DNA from: Dillenia suffruticosa
Taxonomy: Eukaryota; Streptophyta; Magnoliopsida; Dilleniales; Dilleniaceae
Reading direction: 5' to 3'
Length of the DNA stretch: 64,000 nt
NCBI GenBank assembly: GCA_033439265.1
Contig: JAVTVX010000013.1
Location: 3,188,501-3,252,500, forward strand
The notes beneath the pieces are model-generated. The model ran no database searches. It was not told the origin of the DNA and worked only from the letters and a program-made list of their open reading frames with translations. Numbering within the stretch: the stretch's first letter is position 1; each line of letters begins with the position of its first letter. Shown here piece after piece: positions 27,843-63,753 of the stretch. A program made the translations under genes and the position numbers.

Positions 27843-27856
27843 CTACCCCTCAAGCT
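27843..27856 (-). other. Polypurine tract of the Copia element
   Basis: Reads GCTTGAGGGGTAG on the minus strand directly against the 3' LTR, the expected plus-strand priming site. Confidence 0.75.
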
Positions 27857-30800
27857 GGTGCATGAAGGTCAGGAATGCCCAGCTTGCTTTGAAGAAACAA
27901 AAATTGGTCTTTGCTTATAGCTTTAGTGAAAATGTCAGCCGGCTGATTTGTAGTAGAGATGGCACGTGGTTGAATAATCCCAGCTTCAGACTTTTCACGT
28001 ACAATATGACAATCAATTTCAAGATGCTTGGTACGCTCATGGAAAACCGGATTGGCAGCGATATGACGTGCTGCTTGATTGTCACAATATAGAGGAGTGG
28101 CAGATGATAAAGAGATGCCAAGGTCTCGAAGTAAAGATTGAAGCCAAATGATTTCTCGTGTAGTGGTGGCCATGGCACGATATTCGGCCTCAGCCGAGGA
28201 ATGTGATACAGTCTGTTGCTTTTTACTCTTCCAAGATACCAAACTATGACCAAGAAATATGCAGTATCCTGTAGTTGACCGACGGATTTGAGGACAGCTT
28301 GCCCAATCGGAATCTGAAAAAGCAATAAGCTCTATTGGGCTAGAAGAAGACAATAGAATACCCTGACCTGGAGTTTTCTTTAAATAGCGAAGTAGCCGAT
28401 GAGCAGCATCTAAGTGTGGTTGACGAGGTTGATGCATAAATTGGCTAAGAACATTAACGGCGAATGTAATATCAGGCCGAGTGATAGTCAAGTAGATGAG
28501 ACGACCAACTAAGCGTCGATAAGAGGAGGAATCTTCTAGCAAATTGCCTATAGAGTCGGTAAGCTTGAGATGTTGTTCCATGGGTGTATGAGCAATGCGA
28601 GCCCCCGTGAGGCTAGAATCGGCAAGGAGGTCCATGACATATTTATGTTGTGAGAGATAAATGCCATGAGAAGATCTAGCTATCTCAATACCAAGAAAAT
28701 ACTTGAGAAGGCCAAGATCCTTAATGCGAAAGCGTTGTAATAAGAAAGACTTGATTTGTGATAGAAGCTTGAAATCATTTCCGGTTATGACGATGTCATC
28801 CACATAAACCAAGAGGAAAAGTGAAGACGACCCACGATGGAGACAAAATAGAGAATTATCAGCATGTGATTTTGTGAAACCGGCTTCTAATAAAGTAGCA
28901 GAAAATGTGGCAAACCAATTTCTTCCGGCTTGTTTCAATCCATATAAGGATTTATTAAGCTTGCAAACTAGATGTTTCTCCCCCTGCTGTGGATGGCCGG
29001 GAGGTAAGCACATGTATACTTCCTCTTGCAATGGACCATGTAAGAAAGCATTTTGCACATCAAACTGATAAAGAGGCCATCGTTGAGCAGCAGCAACGGC
29101 TAAAAGGACTCGGACAGTCACCAATTTTGCAACCGGAGCAAATGTATCATGATAATCTACCCCTTCAATTTGGGTATATCCTTTGGCAACCAAGCGTGCC
29201 TTGTAGCGTTCAATGCTTCCATCGGAGTGCCGTTTGATTTTATAGACCCATTTGCATCCAATAGGTTTCTTATCTGGTGGAAGAGGCATAATAGACCATG
29301 TATTTGTTGCTTCAAGGGCATTCAGTTCTGTTTTCATAGCTTCTCGCCACTCAGGTATGTGTACAGCTTAGGTAAATGTTTTGGGTTCTGCAAGAGAGGT
29401 TAGGGCACCAAGAAAAACACAATGTCTAGAAGAGAAACGATGGAAAGAAAGATAGTTTTCCAAAGGATATTTAGTACCTGAAAAAGTTGAAGATGATTGA
29501 TGTTGAACTTGAGAACAATGATAGTCTTGGTATTTCGTCGGAGGGCGAGTCACTCGTTGTAAGCGACGAAGGGGTGTTGTGGAACGTGTAGAGATGGGTT
29601 CAACAGTGGAAGTTGGAGGTGGATAAGTGGAGTCACCGGTGTCGGTTAATGGGAGGGGAAGAACATTGATAGTATCAGTATTAATTGACACTTGCAATTT
29701 GCATGGAAAAATATTTTCATGAAACACGACATCCCTACTCACATAAATTGTTTGAGATTTAATATCAAAAATTTTAAATCCCTTTTGGCCATATGGGTAA
29801 CCAAGAAATATACCTGGTAAAGCACGTGAATCAAATTTATGTTTGGGATAATTGTTTCGACCAAAAACCAAACAGCCAAAAACACGTAAATGGTGATATG
29901 TAGGCATTTTGTGGAACAAAATTTCAAAAGGGGTTTTACCATGAAGGATGGCTGTAGGAGTGCGATTGATAAGATAAGTTGCATTAAGAATACATTCACC
30001 CCAAAATGTTAAAGGTAGGTGAGATTGAAATCGTAAAACTCGTGCAACATTTAGTAAATGACAGTGTTTACGTTCGACAATCCCATTTTGTTGGGGTGTG
30101 TAAGCACAACTATGTTGATGGATGACACCACGGGAATTAAGAAAGTTATTAATGTCATTATTGAAAAATTCTAGTGCATTGTCACTATGCACTTGGCGAA
30201 TGGAAGTATCAAATTGTGTTTTAACCATAGAAAAAAAAATGGCGAATATGGGTAAAGGCTTGGGATTTAAAACGCATCAAATATGTCCAAGTAGAACGTG
30301 AAAAATCATCCACTATTGTGAGAAAATTACGTGCACCAGTAATAGTATGAGTGGAATATGGTCCCCAAATATCGATATGAATTAAATCAAAACAAGATTT
30401 AGAAGAAATAGAGTTATGTGGAAAGGGAAGTCGTGATTGTTTTGCTAAAGGGCAAATCATACAAGTGTATTTAGATAAAAAACTGATACCAGAATCTAAA
30501 CGAGAGAACAAAGGTGAGATATTGGAACTGGGGTGGCCAAGACGACAATGCCATAAGTCTTCTTTGTCTTTTGTAGCAATCGATGACAAAGAAATACTGT
30601 GGTTGAATTTTAGATCAAGGTAGTAAAGACCATCACGTTCTCTTCCCAATCCAATCATCTTCTTCGTTTTCAGGTCCTGAAAAACACAACAGTTTGAGAA
30701 AAAAGTAACAGAACAATTAAGATTTTTTGTGATTTTGCTAATGGATAGGAGGTTGAATTTAAAAGATGGGACATACAAAACTTTATCTAGTGAGAAATCT

Positions 30801-32072
30801 GATGAAAATTTAATAGAACCTAAGTGAGTTACTGGAACAACACTACCATTTGAAGTTTGACAGGTTGGTTGGTATGGCAAGAGGTATCATGTAAGGATTT
30901 TAGATCGTGAGTCATATGATCACTGCATCCAGAATCGATTACCCAAGTGTCATTGTAATGGGAAGAAAAACAAGAAACCATACCTGCCAGGTTAGCTAAA
31001 GGATGAGAATGTGTAGTGTTGTTGGATTGGATTAAGGAGAGAAGTTGCTGTACTTGTTCCTCAGTGAAGGGTAAGCTATGAGAAGAAAATGATGCACTAT
31101 CCGCAGTAGCTGCAACTGGTCGATTATGATTTGGTGCATAATTCTGCTCATGCCGAGAGTGATTTGTTCTCGGTTGGTTGGATGTAACAGAACGCATATC
31201 AGCTTGTTTCTTGCGGCACCACTTCTCAATATGTCCATCTCTTCCACAATAATTACAGTGTTTGTGATGTTTTGATTTATCTTGCCATGGAGAAGGAGAA
31301 TTTTGTCTTCCATGGTGAGCCACGAATGCAGATTGATCTGGTATGGGATTGGATGTAAGTATTGACCTTTGTCGTTCTTCTTGTTGCACAAGCGCACAAG
31401 CGCATAAGCTTGAGCAATAGATGGAAGAAGGTTCATGAGTAAGATTTGACTTCTTACCGATACATATGTATCATTCAAACCCATCAAAAATTGGATAAGA
31501 CGGTCACGCTGCTGGAAAGTGGCGAGTTCTTGAGCAGAACCACAAGTACATGTAGTGGGTGAGTTGTAAATATTAAGCTCATCCCATAGTGTTTTCAAAC
31601 CAGTATAGTAAACGGCAATGGAGTTATTTTGCTGAAGATGGTTAACGATGGTTCGTTGGATTTCAAAAATCCGTGGAGCATTTTGTTGGGAAAAACGATC
31701 TCGAAGATCATGCCATACATCATGGGCTGTCTCCATGAAGATGACGCTGCTTGCAATTTCTTTACTGACTGCATTGAGAAGCCAAGATAATACCATGCTA
31801 TTGCAACGACTCCAAAGGGTGAAGGTGGGTGAACCTGGTTCTGGTTTCACAATCGACCCGTCTAAGAATCCTAATTTGTTCTTTGCCTCAAAAGCCATAG
31901 TAATGGCACGACACCAAGTTGGATAGTTATCTCCAATCAATGGTTGAGAAACTAACATGGTACTTGGATTGTCTGAATGGTGTAAGAAGTATGGTGAGGT
32001 TAGATCTGCTTCAGCCATTGGATTTGACATTACCAAGGAAGAATGAAGCGACTAGGGTTTACAGGTTGAAGA

Positions 32073-62056: not shown

Positions 62057-62833
62057 AAATAAAAGCTAAAAGCAGATATTACAAATTTCAATCCAAATAC
62101 GTTGAGAATATTCTAAGACCCATAATGGGCAATATTCCTTTTACAATAATTCTCTCTCCTTTGTCGTGTACGTTCCTATTTAGCATATGCCATGCCATTT
62201 TTTTCTGGAACACAACCTTGAATCCCTGGGAATGAATCGTACAAAGTTTCTAATCACAACATAAGCCCAGAATACTATCAACTAAATTATTTAAAATCAA
62301 AATTTTGATTGTTTGTCACGTGATAATTGATTTTTTCTTTTTTTCCCGACCTTATATCAAAAAAATTGAACACAATACATTTTTTGAGGATATCCCATCA
62401 TCTCTTTCTTTGAATTATCAAAACTCCAAAAAAAAAAAAAAGACCGCATCGCGTTCTTAGTGATCAAGAGAGAACACATTTAGAAGCAGCTACACAAATT
62501 CCTTGATATTTGATATCACGTTAAGGCAATTAAGTTTTAAAATAATAATTATGAGTGAAATTGAATATTTATAAGTAACCCCAAAAAAAAAAAAAAAGTT
62601 TTGTAATACTACGTTATGACATTGCTCCCCTTTCACTCCCTCCATTCTTTTTACCAAACCCAAAACAGGGAAATCTTTCCGACCACTATGCATCTTCTAA
62701 ACCAAGTATCTAACTTCCAGGGCATGGCCAATTTTTTCCCAGAAGGCAAAGGAAAAGAAATCAAGAAGAGAAAAGTTAAAAAGGATGAGATAATGAAGCA
62801 GCCTTTGATTAATGACTACAACAGAGGTTAGGT
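62057..62833. other. AT-rich spacer
   Basis: No gene or element ends recognised. Contains short A runs near 62429 and 62583. Confidence 0.55.
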
Positions 62834-62843
62834 TAAGAATGAG
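62834..62843. repeat. Target-site duplication, left copy
   Basis: TAAGAATGAG, identical to 63744-63753. Confidence 0.85.
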
Positions 62844-63743
62844 GAGTCATGTACCAAAATAACCTAAAAAAAAAAATATTTTTTAAAATAACTCCACTCG
62901 AAAAATATTTCCCCAAATAACCCAAATTTATCGGGAGTTAGAGACGCGACACACTGTATCGCGTTTTCAACCCGCGACAACCCGGAGAGAGAGGAGAGAG
63001 AGAGAGAAGAGAGAGAGAGGAGTCCGCGAGGGAGGGAGAGAGGGGAGGAGAGCGGCGGGGGGGTCCGCCGGGGGGAGGGGGCTGGCGGCGGGCGGCGGAG
63101 GGGGGAAGGAGAGAGAGAGAAGGAGGCTGCGGGGGGCAGAGGGGGGAAGGAGAGAGAGAGGGGAGGGGGGGAAGAAGAGAGAGAGGGAGGGCCGCGGGGG
63201 GCGGAGGGGGGAGGGAGAGAGAGAGGGAGGCTGCGGGGGGGGGAGGGAGAGAGAGAGAGGGAGGGCCGCGGGGGGTGGAGGGGGGAGGAGAGAGACACAG
63301 CGGCTCTCCTCCCCCCTCCGCGGCTCTCCCTCTCTCTCTCCTTCCCCCCCTCCACCGCCCGCCGCCAGCCCCCCTCCCCTCTCTCTCTCTCCTTCCCCCC
63401 TCCGCCCCCCCGCGGCCCTCCCTCTCTCTCTCCCTCCCCCCCTCCGCCCCCCCCGCGGCCCTCCCCCTCTCTCTCCTTCCCCCCTCCGCCGCCCGCCGCC
63501 AGCCTCCTCCCCCTGGCGGACCCCCCGCTGCTCTCCTCCCCTCTCTCCCTCCCCCCGCGGACTCCTCTCTCTCTCTCTTCTCTCTCTCTCTCCTCTCTCT
63601 CTCTGGATTGTCGCGGGTCGAAGACGCGACACAGTGTGTCGCGTCTCCAACTCTCGATAAATTTGAGTTATTTGGGGAAATATTTTTCGGGTGGGGTTGT
63701 TTTAAAAAATATTTTTTTTTGGGGTTATTTTGGTACATGGCTC
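62844..63743. mobile_element. 900-bp palindromic Mutator-like non-autonomous element
   Basis: Begins GAGTCATGTACCAAAATAAC, and the right end's reverse complement begins GAGCCATGTACCAAAATAAC. It is flanked on both sides by TAAGAATGAG (62834-62843 and 63744-63753), a perfect 10-bp target duplication, as in Mutator-like elements (usually 9-11 bp). The inverted arms do not stop at a terminal repeat. They continue through a G/A-rich left half and C/T-rich right half to a centre near 63294, so the whole element is one hairpin-capable palindrome. There is no transposase; open frames here are low-complexity artefacts. Confidence 0.85.
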
Positions 63744-63753
63744 TAAGAATGAG
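63744..63753. repeat. Target-site duplication, right copy
   Basis: TAAGAATGAG, identical to 62834-62843. Confidence 0.85.

Follow-up and report, generated by a model that had tools for sequence, protein, structure and literature searches.

The window (the whole 64,000-nucleotide stretch of Dillenia suffruticosa DNA that was analysed) contains, close to its end, an element of exactly 900 bp at 62844-63743, the limits given by an initial annotation made from the letters alone. It is flanked by a 10-bp target-site duplication, TAAGAATGAG, also noted there, whose left (62834-62843) and right (63744-63753) copies match perfectly. The tips are GAGTCATGTACC at the left and, read inward, GAGCCATGTACC at the other end; on the basis of tips, duplication and arms, the whole is annotated here as a non-autonomous Foldback-type MULE. 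Its outer terminal inverted repeats are AT-rich and close to the ~140 bp first estimated: about 137 bp at the left (A arm, 62844-62980, forward strand) and about 136 bp at the right (B arm, 63608-63743, reverse strand), with 90% identity in an alignment of 62844-62983 with 63743-63605. At the inner end of the left outer repeat lies a nested, imperfect, CpG-rich palindrome of 53 bp (62928-62980), which has a counterpart in the right one (63608-63660). These two stretches match each other both as a direct repeat (75%, family D11) and as inverted partners (I1), and many other copies of the element have self-inverted matches at the same position.

Inside the outer repeats, the A arm continues as tandem G/A-rich modules (62981-63292, forward strand; 89% purine over 310 bp) and the B arm as tandem C/T-rich modules (63304-63607, reverse strand; 12% purine over 290 bp); the tandem arrays found there include periods of 42-43 bp, in the B arm, and of 92 bp. 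The core is therefore purine-rich, but not the “almost pure” G/A of the first description. Its composition is indeed far from that of its surroundings: its GC fraction is 0.74, whereas 2-kb blocks of the window range from 0.22 to 0.46, the highest value being that of the block with the element. The arms are separated only by an 11-base loop, AGACACAGCGG (63293-63303, forward strand), which lies in an exact match to a 26-base centre common to the family and is the true centre of the palindrome, previously placed near 63294. Aligned over their whole length, the arms agree at 392 positions, differ at 26 and have gaps at 64 (93.8% identity over aligned bases, 81.3% with gaps counted), so that the inverted arms are real and “near-perfect” is somewhat too strong a term for them. 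A single DNA strand is predicted to fold end to end, at -478.4 kcal/mol; 20 dinucleotide-shuffled sequences average -196.4 +/- 6.9 (z -40.8). Both hallmarks of Foldback elements are present: end repeats that make up nearly the whole element, and a composite structure in which an outer 137 bp is followed by tandem inner modules, here G/A-rich.

Open frames inside the element were taken to be by-products of low-complexity sequence. Across the window, Rfam gave no match at its gathering thresholds and ARAGORN found no tRNA. Just before the insertion, at 62697-62843, a short open stretch appears exon-like by eye and runs into a GT, so the element may, judging from the letters, sit at the start of an intron. 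Elsewhere in the window are the remains of a Ty1/copia-type retrotransposon (27850-32051, minus strand), with RVT_2, integrase-region and gag domains in separate frames, and a frame with an ENT domain (PF03735; 11300-12190) that is probably part of a host gene.

Other copies were sought in the genome from which the window comes (596,357,000 bases, or 596 Mb, in 37 contigs). A similarity search with window positions 62800-63300, in which the best 40 of 884 candidates were scored, gave at least 117 matches, mostly inverted arm pairs about 1 kb apart. The exact tip pattern, which is independent of the core, occurs at 57 sites (30 forward and 27 reverse, against 0 and 0 for the reversed control); these, the window's two included, fall into 45 loci, 41 of which hold G/A-C/T hairpins. 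Among the remaining four, L048 is a hairpin interrupted by a nested insert, L049 is a deletion derivative of 265 bp, L056 has a single recognisable end and L063 lacks the B core. Once loci found by similarity are added there are 57 loci in all (56 and the window), or 55 two-ended copies when two with one recognisable end (L043, L056) are left out; a paired core is present in 52 of the 55. The question raised at the outset, of whether there are other copies in the host and how many keep the core, is thereby answered: there are dozens, and nearly all do.

The tip occurs at 469 sites when up to two mismatches are allowed (control 2). Eleven one-mismatch tips, picked by eye from the tips listed and lying outside the loci already in hand, included eight of the G/A hairpin family (L068-L071, L073, L094, L097 and L098; L068 and L097 truncated), one different foldback (L072) and two of something else (L095, L096). 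At L096:183-1200, the similar tip leads into pyrimidine-rich DNA that can pair, over about 85 bp, with purine-rich DNA farther along, in a polarity reversed relative to the main family. At least 60 copies of the G/A family have thus been seen, and by tip count there are perhaps up to about 230. Nearly all of the two-ended copies (53 of the 55) are 689-1471 bp long, few of them below 800, with the other two at 265 and 4085 bp. MITEs are defined as elements under about 600-800 bp with short ends, and by their sizes these copies are something else. The longest, L048, was considered as an autonomous member and rejected: its 4,085 bp are a hairpin with an LTR-like insert (at about L048:1742-4683, with TG...CA ends and CCGGG on either side). 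Outside the plant, the tip pattern had 0 matches in IMG/VR viral contigs and one among GTDB genome contigs, in a Bacteroidetes MAG (L065), where the surrounding 1.4 kb has no end repeat or hairpin and the match was put down to chance.

The centre of the hairpin is as widespread as its tips. Together with shoulders of nine and six bases, the loop (26 bases in all) is found at 84 sites with at most two mismatches, 56 of them exact, against 0 for the control. Some copies carry two loops (for example at C10:10638677 and 10638762), in the same orientation in some of them; in one hairpin copy (L026, G000:C12:12195838-12195952) two loops lie 89 bases apart in opposite orientation. The loop is asymmetric, and 49 of the 55 copies can be oriented by it; the six without a recognisable loop are L023, L029, L042, L049, L053 and L060. 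Arm lengths were compared in 48 copies, the 49 less L048. These are all under 2 kb; the A arm exceeds the B arm in 35 of them, and a greater length of one arm is not accompanied by a greater length of the other (r = -0.28). Five copies with at least three loop edits (L018, L046, L057, L061, L063), which are counted in the arm-length sample, were left out of the tests of arm distance, for which 44 elements remain, or 43 for core similarity, from which L048 was additionally left out.

Insertion has left the mark expected of a MULE, a target duplication of around 9-11 bp. Perfect duplications of 8-11 bp flank 37 of the 55 two-ended copies (22 of 9 bp, 11 of 10, three of 8 and one of 11, so that 33 of the 37 are 9 or 10 bp) and are absent from the other 18; with flanks swapped between copies, one perfect duplication was obtained in 2000. 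The duplicated sequences vary between loci and none, by eye, is a (TA)n run, so the preference for TA microsatellites that marks the MuTAnT family is not seen here. The joined flanks of the window element match only the window locus itself, and accordingly no empty paralogue was found.

Which element could have supplied the transposase? A search for the MULE domain PF10551, in which the best 150 of 737 candidates were scored, led to an 8,117-bp (8.1-kb) Mutator-like element with long open frames (L066, at G000:C24:932695-940811), with tips GAGTGATGTACC / GAGAAATGTACC and a duplication GCAAATCGCC. One stop-free frame encodes a protein of 868 aa with PF10551 (58.6 bits, cut-off 27.6), PF03108 and SWIM domains; a second, separate from the transposase frame and on the same strand, encodes 482 aa with a plant mobile domain (PMD; PF10536, 293.7 bits). 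The consensus of the hairpins' outer repeat, from 44 elements, matches one end of this PMD-MULE at 78% over 138 positions (consensus 1-137, E 1e-27) and the other at 79-80% over 108-113 positions (consensus 25/30-137), L066 itself having 79% over 113 at this end. Eight young copies of the PMD-MULE were checked: all eight have the related outer repeat at both ends, thus joining the hairpins' ends to an element coding for a MULE transposase, and all eight have perfect 9-10-bp duplications. The tips are GAGTGATGTACC / GAGAAATGTACC in seven of them; in the eighth, one end reads GGGTGATGTACC instead. An older, ninth copy differs in its tips, and its duplication contains one mismatch. The transposase itself is present in at least 15 full-length, stop-free copies with 99-100% identity among the 55 matches listed, and on this sequence evidence the PMD-MULE family is young and was probably active recently.

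The autonomous MULE “with the same ~140-bp ends” that the initial annotation proposed to look for has, then, been found in part: the outer repeat is related, at 78% identity, without being the same, and the inner repeat differs. The inner end repeats of the PMD-MULE are tandem CpG-rich palindromes, unlike the hairpin core, and only the outer domain is common to both. Within it, an exact block of at least 21 bases is common to PMD-MULE ends and 36 of the 55 hairpin copies (24 bases in the window copy, 25 at most), and for most of these 36 it lies in the run GAAAAATATTTCCCCAAATAACCC, a candidate transposase binding site. MULEs of other groups were compared as well: one (L067) was rejected as a partner after the repeat proved absent from 8.5 kb around it, and the surroundings of L090/L091 likewise lack it; the control is a weak one, covering surroundings rather than located ends. 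With the surroundings of two other groups compared and 150 of 737 candidates scored, other MULE families are hardly ruled out.

Taken together, the target duplications, the family copies and the related MULE ends bear out the first reading of the window element as a full hairpin with Mutator-type ends that moved as a unit. It is very probably a copy of a non-autonomous Foldback-type MULE family that derives from one ancestral hairpin and was moved in trans. The transposase of the PMD-MULE family, or of its ancestor, would, to judge from the ends, recognise the tips together with the conserved subterminal sequence, move the hairpin and leave the 9-10-bp duplication. Because the copies share an asymmetric loop, the G/A palindrome itself probably arose once, by an inverted duplication whose junction became that loop. 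As copies spread, the tandem modules of each arm would have grown and shrunk by slippage or unequal exchange, and the uncorrelated arm lengths fit such an independent gain and loss in each arm. The purine core is most likely passenger DNA. Counting against the PMD-MULE as helper, its ends and those of the hairpins are only 78-80% identical. The hairpin copies are old, with outer repeats on average 8.3% from their consensus (88 arms); the helper copies, by contrast, are young, so the present transposase may not be the one that mobilised the hairpins.

A different possibility, rather unlikely though not negligible, is that gene conversion between the two arms of a hairpin keeps them similar, so that the structure is actively maintained and not only inherited. 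The distance between the two arms of an element is 0.126, compared with 0.137 for shuffled pairings, and only 3 of 5000 shuffles were as low (44 elements); the similarity of the two arms' cores was exceeded in 15 of 10000 shuffles (43 elements). There are two tip subfamilies, with T or A at position 4, and the arms of an element agree on the subfamily in 37 of 44 cases, whereas in all eight young PMD-MULE copies checked the two ends differ, one with T and the other with A. Within subfamilies, however, the effect vanishes for T (3848 of 10000 shuffles) and is modest for A (46 of 10000), and the stretch next to the loop gives no signal (1142, 758 and 2590 of 5000). Compared between copies, moreover, cores are more alike within an arm type (A-A 0.421, B-B 0.433) than across types (A-B 0.403), and a founder with equal arms would explain much of the signal. 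These distance tests are weak. The Galileo paper (PMC3573991), in the passages searched, gave nothing on gene conversion or TIR growth.

It has also to be asked whether the hairpins act on the PMD-MULE rather than merely riding on it: long-hairpin transcripts might be diced to small RNAs that silence it in trans through the shared end sequence, in the manner of Mu killer. The predicted end-to-end fold and the exact block of at least 21 bases shared by 36 of the 55 copies are what such a mechanism would call for. There is a precedent in maize, where Mu killer is reported to carry MuDR end sequence and has been proposed as a source of hairpin RNA (PMC3440606), and long MULE ends have been linked to siRNAs (PMC6446971). 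On the other side, the shared stretch lies where transposase binding is expected, which would account for its conservation, and at least 15 intact, near-identical copies mean that the PMD-MULE was not silenced throughout. This reading is accordingly improbable. So, to the same degree, is its extension by analogy, in which the PMD-MULE lineage would repeatedly make near-loopless hairpins that serve as natural “Mu killers” genome-wide, their small RNAs targeting the 21-25-base end block. Should a hairpin be transcribed, its small RNAs could reach the PMD-MULE.

Could the hairpins have arisen many times, through separate inverted duplications at loci into which a single-armed element had inserted? 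Ends of this type do seem to have given rise to hairpins on two or more occasions, as seen at the different foldback met among the one-mismatch tips: L072:777-2032 is a hairpin of about 1.26 kb with a similar tip and an unrelated, modular core unlike the G/A core, 487 of 584 aligned arm bases being identical (83%); its 9-bp duplication has one mismatch. For the G/A family, independent events would be expected to give differing junctions, and such events are contradicted by the same asymmetric 26-base centre, common to both tip subfamilies, at its 84 sites; many origins within that family are therefore highly improbable. Finally, although G/A-rich palindromes are hard to assemble, an assembly artefact or a simple-repeat expansion without any transposon has almost no chance of being the explanation, given the same structure and loop at dozens of loci, perfect target duplications that differ from locus to locus and an outer repeat shared with a coding element.

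A copy of a Foldback-type MULE family with one ancestral hairpin, moved in trans, remains the preferred reading, and in this light the initial description of the element as unusual needs dividing: Foldback-type MULEs that are almost entirely inverted repeat have been described already (MuTAnT and FARE, with Tm1 as a further case), and what is distinctive is the purine core, the tiny loop and the second, unrelated hairpin core on similar tips. Composite repeats that contain tandem motifs are a feature of Foldback elements (PMC3169594), most of which are considered to be Mutator elements (PMC4079207). Their coding partners can be missing, as for Tetris, where none is reported (PMC4079207); here, the presence in the same genome of a young, apparently intact PMD-MULE with related ends makes both cross-mobilisation and hairpin-RNA silencing directly testable. 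The long, nearly loopless purine-rich palindromes at dozens of loci also offer natural examples for work on the tolerance of such structures.

Among the systems compared, the closest in design is MuTAnT/AutoMuTAnT of Medicago truncatula (PMC4486113), according to the sections of its description drawn on here. MuTAnT is likewise a non-autonomous MULE with modular long end repeats, 218 foldback copies and a coding partner in the genome; it differs in its size as first described (292 bp, with 144-bp repeats) and in its TA-microsatellite targets, and those sections mention no purine-rich core. FARE of Arabidopsis (Windsor and Waddell 2000), as cited in the same source, is a Foldback with long palindromic ends that is now placed among MULEs. 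Tm1 of root-knot nematodes has multi-domain composite end repeats with tandem motifs, 9-bp duplications and both small and coding members, but it is a nematode element with a Phantom-subclass-like transposase and motifs of ~14 bp, some members having a histone-hairpin region between the repeats (PMC3169594). Tetris of Drosophila virilis is a foldback with tandem repeats in its end repeats and 8-10-bp duplications, proposed to be Mutator; it is an animal element with 220-bp internal repeats and no coding partner found (PMC4079207). MULEs with tandem ends (PMC3310237) show end duplication of another kind.

PMD-carrying MULEs are also known (PMC5418596, PMC6446971), and the helper candidate resembles them in combining a transposase with a PMD, in its 9-10-bp duplications and in its end repeats of a few hundred bp. 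What these reports describe, in the portions consulted, are PMD fusions or PMDs that are often antisense, whereas here the PMD has a frame of its own, which runs in the same direction as that of the transposase; a further difference is that a Foldback satellite family has the outer end repeat in common with this PMD-MULE. No paper was found by searching published text for the tip letters, and no such purine core is described in the foldback and hairpin MULE literature, as judged mostly from titles and the beginnings of abstracts. A hairpin element that hitch-hikes on the transposase of another is thus of a kind already known from these systems; the purine-rich middle of the window element is unusual.
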